Positions 35,281 to 50,105 of a stretch of 64,000 nt of DNA are shown here, piece after piece (position 1 is the first letter of the stretch; every line of letters begins with the position of its first letter). Where the stretch lies: positions 62,001-126,000 of the forward strand of contig NZ_JAMFLH010000002.1 of the NCBI RefSeq assembly GCF_023501975.1. Direction: 5' to 3'. The translations under genes were made by a program, and so were the position numbers. Below the pieces are notes generated by a model. It did not search any database, had not been told where the DNA came from, and saw only the letters and a program-made list of their open reading frames with translations. The DNA comes from Altererythrobacter sp. KTW20L. Lineage in GTDB: Bacteria > Pseudomonadota > Alphaproteobacteria > Sphingomonadales > Sphingomonadaceae.

Positions 35281-35619
35281 TTACAAGGCCAGCTCGCCGG
35301 ATTCGCCAGTGCGGATGCGGACGACCTCAGGCAGGTCGAGGACGAAGATCTTGCCATCGCCGATGGTGTCGGTGCTGGCTGTGACGCGGATGGTTTCGAC
35401 GACCTGCGGCGCCAGGGCATCGCTGGTGGCGATTTCCAGCCGGACCTTGGGCAGCATGTTCACCGCATATTCGGCTCCGCGATAGATTTCGGTCTGGCCC
35501 TTCTGGCGGCCGAAGCCCTTGGCTTCCGATGCCGTCATCCCGGCCACGCCGATTGCGGCCAGCGCCTCGCGAACCTCTTCCAGTTTGAACGGCTTTATCA
35601 CCGCGATCACCAGCTTCAT
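35281..35619 (-). CDS. Second PII signal protein (GlnB/GlnK type)
   Basis: 112 residues, the exact length of PII proteins. Uridylylation-site tyrosine Y51 lies in EIYRGAEY; the signature GAEYAVNMLPK and the C-terminal IRTGESGELAL complete the fold. PII trimers sense 2-oxoglutarate and ATP/ADP and bind AmtB or NtrB-type partners. It lies downstream of glnK-amtB but behind that unit's terminator, with its own sigma-70-type promoter, so it is probably controlled differently. The sequence is very similar to the glnK product, consistent with a tandem duplication. Confidence 0.93.
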   Translation of the reverse strand: MKLVIAVIKPFKLEEVREALAAIGVAGMTASEAKGFGRQKGQTEIYRGAEYAVNMLPKVRLEIATSDALAPQVVETIRVTASTDTIGDGKIFVLDLPEVVRIRTGESGELAL

Positions 35620-35674
35620 CGCCAACCCCTTTTGTGTTCGTCCCATCGGCATGAGGCCGACAGCAGCTTCTCTC

Positions 35675-35703
35675 TATAATGGGCCTGCCCCTGCGGGTGG
35701 CAA
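35675..35703 (-). promoter_or_regulatory. Promoter of the second PII gene
   Basis: Minus strand: TTGCCA (35703-35698), 17 bases, ATTATA (35680-35675). The -35 touches the T-run of the amtB terminator. About 55 bases of leader would precede the ATG. Confidence 0.55.
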
Positions 35704-35735
35704 CAAAAAAGGGCCGGAGCGGCTGGCTCCGGCCC
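35703..35735 (-). terminator. Rho-independent terminator of glnK-amtB
   Basis: Minus strand: perfect 10-bp stem GGGCCGGAGC/GCTCCGGCCC (35735-35726 and 35720-35711), 5-base loop, then six T. It closes the amtB transcript and separates it from the second PII gene. Confidence 0.88.
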
Positions 35736-35821
35736 AATAGTTTGTACGTTCGCAGGAGGAACGTGGTGAGGCGGAACCGGGGGGAGAGAAGGAGAAGGTC
35801 CCGGTTCCGCCAAACTTGGTA

Positions 35822-37159
35822 TCAGTTGTAGGCGCGCTCGCCGTGTTCCGAGATATCGAGGCCGTTGACCTCTTCCTCTTCGGTGACACGCAGCCCGATG
35901 GTCAGCTTCACGATGTAGCCGGCGATCAGGGTGCCGATACCGGCCCAGGCGACCGTAACCAGGACGCTGTAGGTCTGGATCCAGAGCTGTGCACCCATCG
36001 CGGTCGATCCATCGCCAGGTCCACCAAGGAACGGCTGGTAGACCACCGCCGTGCCGATGGCGCCGACGATGCCGCCGATGCCGTGGATGCCGAAAGCGTC
36101 AAGCGAGTCGTCGTAGCCGAACTTGGCCTTCATCTTGGCGACGAAGATGTAGCAGACGATCGACGACAGGATGCCGAGCAGGATCGCACCGAACGGGCCG
36201 GAGTTGCCGGCTGCCGGGGTTACCGCCACGAGACCGGCGATGATACCCGAGGCGAAGCCCAGGGCCGAACCCTTGTGACCGGCCAGCTTTTCCATCACCA
36301 TCCAGGCAAGGGCAGCAGCTGCCGTCGCGACGAAGGTGTTGATCATGGCCAGGCCGGCGAAGCCATCGGCTTCCAGCGCCGAACCGGCGTTGAAGCCGAA
36401 CCAACCCACCCACAGCAGGCCAGCGCCCACCAGGGTCATGGTCAGGCTGTGCGGAGGCATGGGTTCCGACGGGTAACCACGACGCTTGCCCAGCAGGTAG
36501 GCGAGCACCAGGCCGGAAATACCGGCATTGATGTGCACCACGGTGCCGCCGGCGAAGTCGAGCGCGCCGTCTTCGAACAGCAGGCCACCACCCGCCCACA
36601 CCATGTGCGCGATCGGGAAATAGACGATGGTCAGCCAGATCGGCACGAACATCATCAGCGCGGTGAACTTCATGCGCTCGGCCGTCGCACCCAGGATAAG
36701 GGCGGCGGTGATCGCGGCGAAGGTCATCTGGAAGCTGATGAAGACATACTTGCTGATGACCTCATCGCTGAAGGTTGCCGCCGTGCTGCTCGCATCGGTG
36801 CCAGCCAGGAAATAGCTTCCACCGCTGATGAACAGGCCAAGCGTGCCATCATAAACGGTATCGCCGAACGCCAGCGAATAGCCCCACATCACCCACACCA
36901 GCATGGCGAGGCAGGCGGTGGCGCCTACCTGCGTCATGGTGGAGAGCATGTTCTTGGAACGGGTCAGGCCGCCATAGAACAGTGCCAGGCCCGGCAGAAT
37001 CATCAGCAGCACCAGCAGCGTGGCAGTCATCATCCAGGCGTTATTGCCGGGATTGGGAACGGCAGGAGCGACCTCGGCCACCTCCTGCGCGAAGGCCGCC
37101 GTGGCGACCATCATTGAAGTACCGATTGCACCGGCACTGTAGATCAGTTTGCGGATCAT
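35822..37159 (-). CDS. amtB: Ammonium transporter
   Basis: 445 residues with an N-terminal signal-like segment ending near AFA, then eleven hydrophobic helices. Motifs: FYGGLTRSKN, the pore aromatic/His region FAGGTVVHINAG and FGIHGIGGIVG with the twin-histidine histidine. It takes up ammonium and is blocked by unmodified GlnK. The ATG at 37159 (MIRKLIYS) follows GGGGT; the longer frame to 37192 overlaps glnK. It sits 29 bases behind glnK in the same transcript. Confidence 0.95.
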   Translation of the reverse strand: MIRKLIYSAGAIGTSMMVATAAFAQEVAEVAPAVPNPGNNAWMMTATLLVLLMILPGLALFYGGLTRSKNMLSTMTQVGATACLAMLVWVMWGYSLAFGDTVYDGTLGLFISGGSYFLAGTDASSTAATFSDEVISKYVFISFQMTFAAITAALILGATAERMKFTALMMFVPIWLTIVYFPIAHMVWAGGGLLFEDGALDFAGGTVVHINAGISGLVLAYLLGKRRGYPSEPMPPHSLTMTLVGAGLLWVGWFGFNAGSALEADGFAGLAMINTFVATAAAALAWMVMEKLAGHKGSALGFASGIIAGLVAVTPAAGNSGPFGAILLGILSSIVCYIFVAKMKAKFGYDDSLDAFGIHGIGGIVGAIGTAVVYQPFLGGPGDGSTAMGAQLWIQTYSVLVTVAWAGIGTLIAGYIVKLTIGLRVTEEEEVNGLDISEHGERAYN

Positions 37160-37188
37160 AGTATTACCCCTCTGTCCGAAAGCGCCGC

Positions 37189-37611
<423 letters not shown>

Positions 37612-44219: not shown

Positions 44220-45140
44220 CTAGCCTTGCCCGTGCGCCCCATAGCGAAGCACGGTGGGCATGTCGGTTTGCGGTGCGGCACCCTGGTCGGCCATGCGCTG
44301 GGCCATGATCCGGTCGAGGATGGGATGCGGGGTCTCGGCATATTCGGTGGGAGTCATACCCATGAAACTGCGGAAGTCGCGGACGAAATGGGCATGGTCA
44401 TAGTACTGCACGTCGAGCGCAGTGGTCCATTTGTGGGGTGCCTTGGCATCCGGACCGGCGAGCATGAACCGCGCCAGGCTGCGCAGGAACCGCTGACGCC
44501 GCAGCAGCAGCTTGGGGGGAAAGCCGAAATAACGCGAGCACAGCCGCTCAAGCGACCGACGACCGATATCGAGACCAAGCGCCAGTTGTTCGACATCTGC
44601 AATCTCGGGGTCACGCAGCGCTTCCTGCAGTGGCAGCACACGCTCTGGCAGCGGCGGAGCCCGGCAATCAAGCTCGAGCAATCGGGCATTTATCCGCCCC
44701 GCTGTCTCGTCGGCATCCCCTCCAGCGCGTTCGATCTCCCGCAAAACGGTCAGGAACGGTGCAAAGCCGGGCAAACTGGCGGCGTCGAAGATCCCGTCGG
44801 CGAGCGTACTGGCCGGTGTCTCGACATATCGCGCCCAGCCAGCCGGTTGCAGCCCCAGCCCCCATATGCGCGAACGGTGCAGGGCAAACTTTATCGCCCG
44901 GCTGGTCGGCCCGCTGAGCACAAACTGCGAAGTAGAACCAAGCTCGTCCGGCGTGATCGCCGCCATCGGCGACTTGCCGTACTGAATAAAGCGCATGGCG
45001 GCCCATTCGGGATGCAGCAGGTCATGAATCATCGCCGCATCGCCGCAATCGATCTCGAACAGATAGAGTGCCGTAAAGTAGGGTTGCAGTTCCTCCGACA
45101 GGCGGAAAAAGCGCACATCTATGGCGAATTGTCCCGTCAT
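44220..45140 (-). CDS. AraC family transcriptional regulator
   Basis: About 306 residues. The C-terminal HTH pair is visible: [25 protein letters not shown] followed by [25 protein letters not shown], the two helix-turn-helix units of the family. The N-terminal part (about 1-180) is a putative ligand-binding domain of the DUF6597 type. The effector is unknown. The ATG at 45140 is used; the open frame to 45281 is mostly basic and unlikely. Divergent from the secreted CsgG/SH3-like gene, so a local target is possible. Confidence 0.88.
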
Positions 45141-45407
45141 CGGATGCGACCAGCCCCCTGCACGTTCGTCCCTCCCTTGTTGGATCGGACGTAACGCGAT
45201 TACGCGCGAAAGTAACACTTGGTTCCCGATTGCGCGAAATGTTGCGCGGATTCCATGACAATCGCGAGCAGAAAATGACAAGGCCGGTTAGGTGCTTCCC
45301 GGCATCTTGCCTCTTCCCCTCCAGCGGTCGCTTATCGGCTCCAGCAGGCGCGCAGTCAGCGCCTGAAGCGGCTGAAAGCCTGCTGCAAGCGATTGAAAGG
45401 GGGAACC

Positions 45408-46295
45408 ATGTACAGGAATCTCATAACATTGGCCCTGGCGGCAGGGTGCGCCAGCGCAGTGGCCAGCGTCCCGGCACTGGCCAACGACGTAGAGCTGGTG
45501 CGCTGCGAACAAAGCCTGGGCAGCGTGGCGCTGGTCGATGGCGCCGGAGCCGGTTGGCAGCAGTGGAACCTTGGCAGCCCGCGCGCCCTGCTGATGCGGC
45601 TGGCCAGCGAATCGGGCTGCTTCACGCCGCACGCCGGTGGCGCAGAACCCGCCCGGTTCCTGATGACCGCAGTGGCCGGGACCGAGGAAGAGGTGGACCA
45701 GGGTGTCAACCTTGCCACTACCGCCGCCACCGAGGCCCTGGTCCGCAGCGGAGCCGCTGCCAGCGTATTGCGCAGCGTGCCATTCGGCGGGTCGGCACTT
45801 GGCATGCTGGGCGGGCTTGGCGGCACGCGCCGCACCGTCGCCGCGGGCCTCACCGTGGTCAGCCCGGCCACTGGCCAGCCGATCGCGTCGGGCACCGGGA
45901 CGGTCCGTTCGTCGAGCCTCAGCTTCCGGGGGTCCAGCGGCGGCTGGGCGCGCGGCGTGGCAGAGACGACCGGCTATGCCGACAGCCGCGATGGCCAGAA
46001 ACTGACCGAAGCCTTCATCATCGCCTTCAATGAAGTGGTGGCGCAGAACGCAGCCTTGGCTGCCGCGCCGCAGCCGGGCGCGGCCATGGCGGCAGCTGAC
46101 CCTGCAGCCGGTCCCTCTGCCGTAGCTGCAGTCGATACCGTGATGCGCGCAGCAGCCGCAGCCGATGCCGCCGAAGTCCGCAGCCTGCGCGCTGGCACTG
46201 AACTGGTGCCGACCGGCAACCGTGATGGCCTGTGGGTCGAGGCGGCCGACAACTTCGGCACCAAGGGCTGGGTCTCGGTCGAAGACCTGCGCTGA
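45408..46295 (+). CDS. Secreted protein with CsgG-like and SH3-like regions
   Basis: About 295 residues with a signal peptide (ITLALAAGCASAVASVPALA). The first mature part (VRCEQSLGSVALVDG...GSPRALLMRLASESGCF) resembles a CsgG/HfaB-like secreted family common in sphingomonads. An Ala-rich linker (about 225-255) leads to a C-terminal bacterial SH3-like domain (RSLRAGTELVPTGNRDGLWVEA). It may take part in a surface or cell-wall structure; no partner genes are adjacent. AAAGGGGG lies just before the ATG. A 12-bp terminator follows. Confidence 0.72.
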   Translation: MYRNLITLALAAGCASAVASVPALANDVELVRCEQSLGSVALVDGAGAGWQQWNLGSPRALLMRLASESGCFTPHAGGAEPARFLMTAVAGTEEEVDQGVNLATTAATEALVRSGAAASVLRSVPFGGSALGMLGGLGGTRRTVAAGLTVVSPATGQPIASGTGTVRSSSLSFRGSSGGWARGVAETTGYADSRDGQKLTEAFIIAFNEVVAQNAALAAAPQPGAAMAAADPAAGPSAVAAVDTVMRAAAAADAAEVRSLRAGTELVPTGNRDGLWVEAADNFGTKGWVSVEDLR

Positions 46296-47171: not shown

Positions 47172-50105
47172 CTATCCTCCTACGAACACGAAGGGTGCCC
47201 AGATCGCCGGATGGGCCGCGCCGTCAACCGAAGCGTCGGCGATCAGCGCAAGCTTGGCCTGGCGCAGGGCCTCTGCCGGATCGAGACCCCGTGCAGCCCC
47301 TTCGGCCGTAGCCACGCTGAGCCGCGCCGCCACATCGTCGCGCACCCGCCAGTGCGAGGCGAGCAGGCTTTGAGCCCCAGCATAGAGAAAGGCCTGGGCC
47401 AAGCCGCCGAAAGCAGCATCGTCCATGCTGTTGCCCGAGGCCGAATTGCAGGCCGACAGCACCACCCAGCGCGCCGTCAGGTTCAGCGCGGCGATCTCGG
47501 ACGTTGTCAGCAGGCCATCGCCCGCCTCCCCCGGCAACGGCGGCGAGAGGACCAGCGCGGCCTCCTCCAGCCCGTCGAGCTCCCCTGCCATCAGGCCGTG
47601 GGTGGCGAAGGTAATGATGTCGGCGGAGTCCAGGCCAAGCGAGCCAAGCGCCGCTTCGGTCGCCTCCGGCCCTGCCAGGATACGCGATTCCCCGGCGTCT
47701 ACCGCTCTTGCCATGGCCGCCAGCTCGCCCGCCGCCAGTCCGAGCGGCCCGAGATCGGCAATGCGCCGTGCATTGTCCGGGCCACGAAAAGCCAGCGTCG
47801 TCGTCGCTGTCGGCAGGGCGGCATCGGGAAGTGCTGGCGCACCGACCCCGACAAAGCGGTCGTAGGACCGCTCCCACTGGCCCGCATCGCTCCGGCCTGC
47901 CCGCGCCGGATCGATCGGGTAGGCAAAGGCATGGCGTTCCAGCGCGAACCGTCCCGCCGCACCACTTTCCTTCAGAATCGAAAGCGGCAAGCGCGCCAGT
48001 TCGCCCCGCGCAATCACGTTGACCCGCGACTTGCTGTCCAGCACTGCTCGGATCGCGGGAGTGAAGAGCGCATCGTGCAGCACCTCGCTCGCCTCGCTGT
48101 CGAACGGAGCCAGGCCCGCCAGCCCGGCATCGAGATTGGTCCGCAGCCGGGTCACCAGTTCGCCGATTTCCAGGGTGCTCAGGCCCGCATCATCTGCCAC
48201 CACGCCATCGGACGTGACCGCAAAGATGCGCGTCTGCACATCCGCTTCGACGATGAACAGCAAGGCGGCGTCGGCGCCCAGTCGCTGCTGCATCTCCGCC
48301 AGTCCGACCGGGCGCAAAAGCGGCGCGGCCAGGTCGCCCTGCCGAGCCAGTTCCTCCGACAGCTCACTGATCGAGGCTTCGATCGCGGCCATGGCCCCCT
48401 GGTCTCCGGCCAGGGCCGCCCGCTGGAACGAGGCAAGCGCCGCCTCGCGCCGCTCCAGCAAGTCCTGCCGCACCCGCAAGGCGGCCGCCACTGCCGGATC
48501 ACCCGCCTCGTCGCGCTGGACTGCACGCAGCAATGAGCGTTCCGAAGCGCCGATGCCCTTGTACTGCGCCAGGTCGAAGGCAAGCGCACCATCGCCAAGG
48601 TCGCCGGCTGCCAGCATGGCCCAGCCGAGCGCCAGTTCGATATCCCCGTCGCGCCCTCCGCCGGCTCCTTCGCCTTCGACCTGCCCGCGCCAGGTGGCGA
48701 GCAGGTGGGGCACGGTTTCGTCGAGCAGGCGCCGCGCCAGCGCCGCGTCACCCGCGCGCGCCTCGGCGAGGGCGCGCAGGGCCTGCCCTTCCTGTGCAGC
48801 GCTGGAAAATTGTTCCGGCCGGTCGGCAAAGCCTTCGTCCAACTCGGCCAGCAGGGGCAGCGCCTCGGCCCAGCGGTTCACACGGCCAAGTTGCAGCGCC
48901 AGCATCTGCAAGTAGTATTGCCGGTCGTAGTGTCCCTGCGGCCGGTTGGCGCGGAAGAAATCGAGCACCGCGCGGTATTCGGCCAGCCCTTCGTCCACCC
49001 GGTCGAGCGAGATGAGGATACCAGCCAGCTTCAAGCGGGCCTCGAGGGTTTGCGGAGCGGTCGCCCCCTGGCTTTCGGTCAGCACACGGGCGGTATATTC
49101 GGCCAGCGGCAGGGTGTCCGCGGCCCGGTGCTGGGCCGTCAATGCGGCGATGAGGTTCAGCCGGGCCTCTGCCGCGGCGGGCGATTCGGGTCCGAATGCC
49201 TCCTCGCGGATGACAAGCGCACGGCGGGCCAGCCCTTCGCTCTCGGCCAGCTGGCCGCTGCGCAATAGCAGGTTGGAGCCGTTGAGCATGATCGTGGCGA
49301 GGCGCGGATGATCGGGCCCCATCAGCGGCCCGAACCGCACCAGCGCGGCACGCAAGACCTGCTCACCCTCGCTCCGCCGCCCGGCTTCGATCAGGGTATA
49401 GATGCGGTTGTTGGCATTGACCGCCAGGGCATCGTGCAATTCGGCATTGCCGGGATCGGCGGCGAGCAGCCGTTCGCCGATCTCCAGCGCCTCGTCCCCC
49501 AGTTCCAGCGCACGGTCGATGTTGCCCTGGCCGCGTTCGGACCAGGCAAGGTTGTTGAGGCCCGTCACCAGCGCCGGGGTGCCTTCGGGGGCATCCTCGC
49601 GCCACAGATCCACCGCCCGCCGCTGGTATTCCAGCGCCTCGTCATTGCGTCCGAGCGCCTGCATGACCACGGCCAGGTTGTTGGTGTTCTCGATATAGTC
49701 CTGCCGGTACTGCGGCCCGGCGGCGGCATAGATGTCGATCGCGGTACCCAGCAGGCCGGCCAGCGGCTCGATCTCCCCCATGATGAAGTAGGTGAAGGCC
49801 AGCTCGCCTTTCAGCTTTTCCAGTTCCGGGTGCGGATCGGGATAGATCGTGGCCGCATAGTCCACCACCGCGCCATAGGCAGCGCGATAGGCGCGTGGAT
49901 CGACCATCTTGTCGATGGCGTTGGCTGCTTCGAGCAACCCGTCCAGCCGCTCCTGCTGCTGCGGATCGAGCTCGATTACCGGAAAGGCGCCGGCCTGTTC
50001 GGTGACGGCATCCTGGGCGAAGGCGGCAGGGGCACAAAATGCCCCAAGGCACATCGCCGATACCGCCAGCCCTCGCAGACGGACCTTGCGCAACCGATCA
50101 CGCAT
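47172..50105 (-). CDS. Secreted TPR-CHAT domain protein
   Basis: 977 residues. A signal peptide (cleavage near AFA-QDA, residue 30) is followed by many TPR-type helices (about 80-530, for example NNLAVVMQALGRNDEALEYQRRAV). The last ~330 residues are a CHAT (caspase HetF associated with TPRs) peptidase-like domain with the catalytic pair H836 (FATHGLM) and C886 (LSACNSA), and the usual ending AHPAIWAPFVFVGG. Both catalytic residues are intact, so it may be an active protease in the periplasm. Substrate and biological role are unknown. No gasdermin, RAMP or other CHAT-system partner lies next to it. Confidence 0.88.
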   Translation of the reverse strand: MRDRLRKVRLRGLAVSAMCLGAFCAPAAFAQDAVTEQAGAFPVIELDPQQQERLDGLLEAANAIDKMVDPRAYRAAYGAVVDYAATIYPDPHPELEKLKGELAFTYFIMGEIEPLAGLLGTAIDIYAAAGPQYRQDYIENTNNLAVVMQALGRNDEALEYQRRAVDLWREDAPEGTPALVTGLNNLAWSERGQGNIDRALELGDEALEIGERLLAADPGNAELHDALAVNANNRIYTLIEAGRRSEGEQVLRAALVRFGPLMGPDHPRLATIMLNGSNLLLRSGQLAESEGLARRALVIREEAFGPESPAAAEARLNLIAALTAQHRAADTLPLAEYTARVLTESQGATAPQTLEARLKLAGILISLDRVDEGLAEYRAVLDFFRANRPQGHYDRQYYLQMLALQLGRVNRWAEALPLLAELDEGFADRPEQFSSAAQEGQALRALAEARAGDAALARRLLDETVPHLLATWRGQVEGEGAGGGRDGDIELALGWAMLAAGDLGDGALAFDLAQYKGIGASERSLLRAVQRDEAGDPAVAAALRVRQDLLERREAALASFQRAALAGDQGAMAAIEASISELSEELARQGDLAAPLLRPVGLAEMQQRLGADAALLFIVEADVQTRIFAVTSDGVVADDAGLSTLEIGELVTRLRTNLDAGLAGLAPFDSEASEVLHDALFTPAIRAVLDSKSRVNVIARGELARLPLSILKESGAAGRFALERHAFAYPIDPARAGRSDAGQWERSYDRFVGVGAPALPDAALPTATTTLAFRGPDNARRIADLGPLGLAAGELAAMARAVDAGESRILAGPEATEAALGSLGLDSADIITFATHGLMAGELDGLEEAALVLSPPLPGEAGDGLLTTSEIAALNLTARWVVLSACNSASGNSMDDAAFGGLAQAFLYAGAQSLLASHWRVRDDVAARLSVATAEGAARGLDPAEALRQAKLALIADASVDGAAHPAIWAPFVFVGG

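Follow-up and report, generated by a model that had tools for sequence, protein, structure and literature searches.

A probably exported TPR-CHAT protein of Altererythrobacter, a predicted cysteine protease, belongs to a family that may act with exoprotein secretion in Sphingomonadales

The stretch of DNA analysed here, 64,000 nt of contig NZ_JAMFLH010000002.1 from Altererythrobacter sp. KTW20L and referred to below as the window, carries a gene for a 977-residue TPR-CHAT protein that a first-pass annotation had described as a secreted protease with an intact catalytic pair and no system partners. The surroundings of the gene are mostly of the housekeeping type (rpmI-rplT, IMPase, cupin and prs), and the same gene order (rplT, IMPase, prs), at 53–55% identity, is found in two further genomes, G034 and G007. 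On the opposite strand, terminating 0.9 kb beyond the end of the CHAT gene, lies the gene of a second predicted exported protein, here called CSG (Table 1). The CHAT gene starts with an ATG that is preceded, at a distance of about 10 nt, by GGAGG; scans of the region for sigma-70 promoters and terminators returned chance level only.

That the open reading frame (ORF) is real and encodes a TPR-CHAT protein was borne out by Pfam, where the CHAT domain (PF12770) scored 166.4 bits against a curated cut-off of 24, and both TPR_10 and TPR_12 exceeded their cut-offs. The NCBIfam family FxSxx_TPR reached 83 bits against a cut-off of 300 and was rejected as a family assignment, the match being attributed to TPR likeness only. 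An AlphaFold2 model built with 66 sequences (mean predicted local distance difference test score 90.4, predicted template modelling score 0.89) consists of a long helical solenoid starting at residue 48 and an alpha/beta C-terminal domain, with very-low-confidence runs confined to the signal peptide region. Matches to separase and Csx29 extend to the C-terminus of the model, so that a caspase/separase-like fold can be assigned. The proposed catalytic residues, H836 within FATHG and C886 within LSACN, are intact as originally described, and their loss was not seen among relatives: both are kept in each of the 25 rows of an initial alignment, which excluded L006 (identical to the window protein) and L031, and both are invariant in all 66 rows of alignment A6, whose members are 26–56% identical to the window protein. 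Its profile match, dyad and fold make the protein a member of the CHAT family, and it is likely to be an active protease.

The window protein is very probably exported, judging from its own sequence and from those of its relatives. Its N-terminus, MRDRLRKVRLR-GLAVSAMCLGAFCAPA-AFA/QD, combines a basic n-region with a hydrophobic core, and the likely −1 residue, A30, is the same in all 11 aligned proteins although the remainder of the peptide varies. The signal peptide proposed at first pass is thus upheld as a prediction, and starts resembling a signal peptide recur across the family. A rule requiring charge, a hydrophobic run and A-x-A was applied to 90 full-length CHAT relatives (10 CHAT proteins shorter than 850 aa were excluded) and, identically, to 74 control proteins from seven cytosolic families; it accepted a signal-peptide-like start in 86 of the relatives vs 4 of the controls. 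Among the four relatives that failed, L043 at least resembles a signal peptide that fails the charge rule alone. The mature relatives contain 0.17 cysteines per 100 aa compared to 1.17 in the cytosolic controls, and 63 of the 90 possess exactly one cysteine past residue 60. In the window protein itself, C19 and C24 lie inside the signal peptide, and C886 is the sole cysteine after its removal. The low cysteine content suggests that stray cysteines are selected against where the compartment is oxidising, and the counts support the view that the CHAT family is under pressure to retain only the catalytic cysteine. Copies linked to two-partner secretion (TPS), described below, have 4–6 cysteines in twelve relatives and 7 in the copy of the own genome.

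The statement that the protein has no system partners holds for its immediate neighbours but not for the family. Whereas a single-protein query found no relative, an alignment-based profile query of the GTDB species collection gave 424, of which the best 80 were retained; including the own and nearby genomes this gave 103 loci, 96 after seven duplicates had been dropped, and every gene up to six positions from the CHAT gene was clustered. Besides syntenic housekeeping sets, six neighbour families recur among the 96 loci: an OmpR-type response regulator (RR, 31 loci), a histidine kinase (HK, 30), a small lipoprotein-like protein (LIP, 20), a giant FecR-domain exoprotein (FECR, 15), an outer-membrane protein with TPRs and a 14-strand barrel (TPRB, 13) and CSG (13). 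At least two of these families are present within six genes at 31 loci, and at least four at 14 loci, in 24 different orders and orientations. The window-type proteins form a clade of five rows with support 100. At one locus of this clade (L059, 57% identical across the CHAT region), the CHAT gene directly follows RR-HK-LIP; the deeper branch that unites the clade with other module-linked CHATs has a support of only 82. At three further loci (L064, L076 and L082) the CHAT gene directly follows FECR, and LIP is missing. Two other arrangements were noted during inspection of the loci: CHAT genes occur as tandem pairs at L078, L106 and L127, and at L147 (9480-12698, G022:C2) a CHAT gene adjoins a 2101-aa repetitive exoprotein-like frame, with genes recognised by eye as type VI secretion-like just beyond.

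The own genome (G000) contains three CHAT genes, the second being located on contig C23 near nrdA/nrdB and the third on contig C35, after a TpsB gene and a gene for a 1838-aa exoprotein-like protein. All six partner families are encoded in this genome, but only CSG is found near the window CHAT; the others are located on contig C5, where RR-HK-LIP faces FECR (2139 aa)-TPRB. In the FECR protein of this C5 module (L136, 3340-9759), a FecR-like part at the N-terminus is accompanied by numerous helical repeats that have GGG/GGN turns and, towards the C-terminus, by several repeated beta-rich units with paired cysteines; the sole Pfam match of the protein, to an integrase SAM domain, is spurious. 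Pfam FecR itself was seen only in the 1182-aa neighbour at L053, which clustered apart from the other FECR proteins. CHAT genes beside or between nrdA and nrdB form a clade of 11 loci (L005, which is the C23 copy, L043, L044, L046-L052 and L132) and often adjoin a conserved gene of about 100 aa. In another genome (G003:C7:196026-196817), CHAT profile matches fall into two overlapping frames, suggestive of a frameshift or an assembly error in one copy.

Co-occurrence was analysed over 99 genomes, of which 39 encode a CHAT domain (PF12770) and 23 a member of the group close to the window protein, defined by an E-value cut-off of 1e-25 against the latter. Only strong matches to the partner families were counted, weaker ones (e.g. 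9 of the 23 CSG genomes) being excluded. All genomes with strong CSG (14/14), LIP (12/12), TPRB (13/13) and FECR (13/13) fall within these 23; strong HK occurs in 13 genomes, one of which (G027, 70% complete) lies outside the group, and FECR and strong TPRB share an identical set of 13 genomes. Within the same genus (40 genomes), CSG (11/11), LIP (10/10) and TPRB (12/12) are always accompanied by a CHAT of this group, with Fisher p-values of 2e-6, 9e-6 and 3e-7. Genome kinship inflates the significance of such tests, and the p-values are indicative only, the bit-score lines having been set at visible gaps after the lists were seen and the CHAT group having been delimited by the E-value cut-off given above.

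A second association with exoproteins concerns the paralogue on C35. The TpsB protein at this locus matches ShlB and POTRA_2 with 64.0 and 27.2 bits, over the respective cut-offs, and TpsB together with a TpsA-like exoprotein is adjacent to the C35-type CHAT not only in the own genome but also in 10 of 12 relatives whose genomes were fetched (genes <150 aa were not called in these). Of the other two, one is cut by a contig end (L195) and one has only a TpsA-like fragment (L200). Taken with the link to FECR and TPRB, two exported CHAT branches thus sit with two different outer-membrane exporters of giant proteins. TPRB is predicted to consist of TPR helices and 14 strands; its best Foldseek match is BcsC, also a TPR-barrel protein, while its barrel aligns best with CymA and OmpG. 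Gene order and co-occurrence link the CHAT family to giant exoproteins with their outer-membrane exporters as well as to a two-component system.

The upstream regions of RR and TPRB have a motif in common, TAACRGC-n3-TGTCA, which has just two exact matches in the 3.09 Mb of the own genome, both at promoters of the C5 module. As the reversed pattern outnumbered the motif there at up to two mismatches, exact matches alone were used; at up to three mismatches, motif matches in the window were no more numerous than in shuffles. A matrix derived from 12 sites detected 53 sites of at least 17.5 bits in 1.8 Mb of loci, compared to a mean of 1.25 (maximum 6) for 20 column-permuted matrices, and 38 of 50 non-training sites of at least 15 bits precede a module gene by no more than 350 bp. 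An upstream site was found for 17 of 22 CSG, 14 of 21 TPRB, 15 of 35 RR and 5 of 86 CHAT genes, and for 31 of 1073 other genes. These frequencies support a putative regulon in which the shared motif links the partners, not CHAT, to the two-component system. The best site in the window is found in front of CSG and none in front of the CHAT gene, and CSG is therefore a member of the regulon by sequence.

CSG is listed among the ORFs from a TTG at 45393, but it is the ATG at 45408 that yields a signal peptide; its SH3_3 match (23 bits) is under the Pfam cut-off of 27. Two other assignments were discarded: CsgG, as PF03783 matches nothing in the own genome, and a solved chain named chloroplast PsbY, whose similarity (a match of the A2 profile, 3.9e-7, over 72 positions near the N-terminus) was not taken as homology. 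Divergent from CSG is an AraC-type gene (44220-45140, minus strand) which shares with it the motif-bearing intergenic region (45254-45292); several genomes retain the two genes side by side between rplT and pheS. Further away in the window (35281-37527, minus strand), two P-II-like genes flank a transporter-like gene of about 445 aa, apparently AmtB as judged by eye.

Table 1. Position of the CHAT gene, its parts, and the features around CSG within the window
Feature	Position	Strand	Evidence or remark
CSG, exported protein with SH3_3-like tail (predicted)	45408..46295	+	recurrent neighbour of CHAT genes in other genera
Best motif match of the window, 17.8 bits, in front of CSG	45274..45292	-	matrix scan
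Second tandem motif, weaker, at a distance of 20 bp, 9.4 bits, ranking third in window	45254..45272	-	matrix scan
Exported TPR-CHAT cysteine protease (predicted), 977 aa	47172..50105	-	ATG start; ORF list, Pfam, AlphaFold2 model
Sec-type signal peptide (predicted), residues 1-30, AFA/QD	50016..50105	-	A30 invariance, signal-peptide rule
TPR solenoid plus following helices, residues 48-589	48339..49964	-	Pfam TPR_10/TPR_12, model helices
CHAT (caspase/separase-like) domain, residues 672-976	47178..48092	-	Pfam 166.4 bits, structure matches
Catalytic His codon, H836	47598..47600	-	alignments
Catalytic Cys codon, C886, sole cysteine of the mature protein	47448..47450	-	alignments, cysteine count

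Of several possible explanations we prefer one, to which we give roughly even weight, where the window protein is a cysteine protease of the envelope working together with exoprotein secretion systems, proteolysis being presumed. It would be exported via Sec and act as a CHAT-type cysteine protease docked through its TPRs, either in the periplasm or at the outer membrane. Its client would be an exoprotein or the exporter of one, held by the TPR solenoid; the CHAT domain would cut this client or a regulator of it, so that an envelope signal would set surface display, release or quality control. A wider generalisation is offered more tentatively: exported TPR-CHAT proteases may be a general partner of exoprotein secretion in Sphingomonadales, forming a caspase-like envelope system under two-component control (the TAACRGC-n3-TGTCA regulon) that would process or release giant surface proteins exported by TPS or by a TPR/14-strand barrel, with the window protein as one of three such proteins per cell.

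Several observations weigh against a role in exoprotein secretion, quite apart from the kinship of the genomes that affects the Fisher tests. No partner family is present within six genes at 57 of the 96 loci, including all 11 nrdB loci. Several genomes have CSG between rplT and pheS but no CHAT gene at that site, and the closeness of CSG to the window CHAT is therefore partly positional. CHAT genes with a motif are few family-wide, and none was found upstream of the window CHAT gene, where the best match in the matrix scan has 5.0 bits; the gene is therefore tied to the system by kinship and co-occurrence only. Of the three CHATs in the genome it is the nrdB-linked copy that tracks the C5 module better (the module is present in 10 of the 11 genomes with that copy), and the window copy may therefore serve another client. 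Finally, G007 has a window-type CHAT with CSG and lacks HK, LIP, TPRB and FECR, and G022 has one with RR-HK-LIP and lacks CSG, TPRB and FECR, so that no single partner is obligatory.

The main rival is an envelope stress or signalling protease, where CHAT would cleave HK, LIP or a trans-acting sensor and signal inward, the exoprotein genes being only the output of the two-component system. RR, HK and LIP are indeed the most frequent company of the CHAT genes, G022 retains RR-HK-LIP-CHAT in a genome that has no exoprotein, barrel or CSG, and Foldseek matches the model best to DdvA, a transmembrane anti-sigma factor; the client of Csx29 is likewise part of an anti-sigma/sigma circuit. However, the TPS-linked clade adjoins TpsB and an exoprotein in most of the fetched genomes, and at the three loci where CHAT directly follows FECR there is no LIP. 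We consider inward signalling somewhat unlikely as the role of the window protein.

It is less probable still that the nrdB-linked CHAT and the window CHAT both serve the C5 module, the latter being a redundant paralogue of the former that has been displaced. Such an origin would fit the position of the window-type CHATs, which branch among the module-linked ones (at the weakly supported joining branch mentioned above), as well as the presence of HK and LIP in three of the four genomes with a window-type CHAT (G000, G034 and G022). Against redundancy, the window-type clade is conserved (53–56% identity) and has an intact dyad, and window-type CHATs occur without an nrdB copy in G022 and G007. 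Improbable, too, is a non-proteolytic chaperone or scaffold, in which the TPR solenoid acts and the CHAT fold has been kept for binding. TPRs do dominate the sequence matches to solved structures, and we know of no proteolysis described for the exported CHAT clade, but histidine and cysteine are invariant in all 66 aligned proteins despite their low identity to the window protein, and the cysteine is usually the only one in the mature chain. A role against phages, with a defence effector that either reaches the envelope by chance or has its target there, is very unlikely despite the frequency of CHAT domains in defence systems (PMC10907252). PADLOC gave only BovA with an E-value of 0.055, and in G034 and G007 the locus is stably kept in synteny with rplT, IMPase and prs. 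Neither the neighbours that could be annotated nor the neighbour clusters that recur include a defence family. The first-pass reading of the gene as lying outside defence systems is thus supported.

Searches of a literature library retrieved no paper in which CHAT domains are treated together with two-partner secretion, FecR or filamentous haemagglutinin, and none on CHAT domain-containing proteins with Sphingomonas. Bacterial CHAT proteases have been studied mainly as defence effectors. If the proposed action on exoproteins is true, the exported CHAT branch would bring caspase-like proteolysis into envelope biology, and the present analysis names the genes, the catalytic residue and the promoter.

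Among proteins of known structure, the top Foldseek match of the model is DdvA, the transmembrane anti-sigma factor of Myxococcus (8rot, 8rw5), which aligns over 622 residues (model 121-976, rmsd, i.e. root-mean-square deviation, 5.4, Z 19.8). The window protein differs from DdvA in having no anti-sigma family in Pfam and no membrane part; a signal peptide is followed by the TPRs. HetF of Anabaena, a protein with a role at the divisome, also combines CHAT with TPRs and has a predicted transmembrane segment (PMC8406250), but its CHAT part lies within aa 1-555, ahead of the transmembrane segment and the TPRs, whereas the window protein has the order signal peptide-TPR-CHAT with a predicted cleavable signal peptide. 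Together, DdvA and HetF indicate that the original description of CHAT proteins as cytosolic was too strong.

Csx29, the TPR-CHAT protein of Craspase (type III-E CRISPR), has the same arrangement of an N-terminal TPR solenoid and a C-terminal CHAT domain. Its chain 7y83_D gave the best VIA Z score (24.5, 538 residues, rmsd 13.0), and 7xc7_D aligned over 505 residues at 7.3 Å (Z 23.7). The window protein is distinguished from it by the predicted signal peptide and an identity of about 12–14%, and neither cas7-11 nor csx30 is among the seven scanned neighbours (rplT, IMPase, cupin, prs, SH3, AraC-type and pheS). Separase, the eukaryotic cell-cycle protease, is likewise built from helical repeats and a CHAT-like protease domain (7nj1_A: 571 residues, rmsd 7.4, Z 20.1), but has an identity of only 15% to the window protein. 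Sequence queries of solved structures with the CHAT part alone returned nothing at E-values up to 1.

On the side of the exporters, the closest parallel to TPRB is type XI secretion (Slam, DUF560), with which it shares a TPR domain followed by a barrel of 14 strands, the number that is also found in Slam. Two of three TPRB members fall just short of the SlipAM cut-off of 22 bits (21.5 and 20.1) and L041 reaches 15.9, and a type XI cargo is not proposed for FECR, where the domain TbpB_B_D was not matched (a weak match of 20.5 bits exists only elsewhere, on C3). Within DUF560, subcluster 1C is described as largely Sphingomonadaceae and uncharacterised (PMC8406197). As FECR has no typical cargo domain, we call TPRB only an exporter candidate. 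A functional parallel for the CHAT protein is LapG, a periplasmic cysteine protease which acts on the giant surface protein LapA under regulatory control. The window protein would work like LapG, by analogy and not by kinship, as the fold of LapG is transglutaminase-like.

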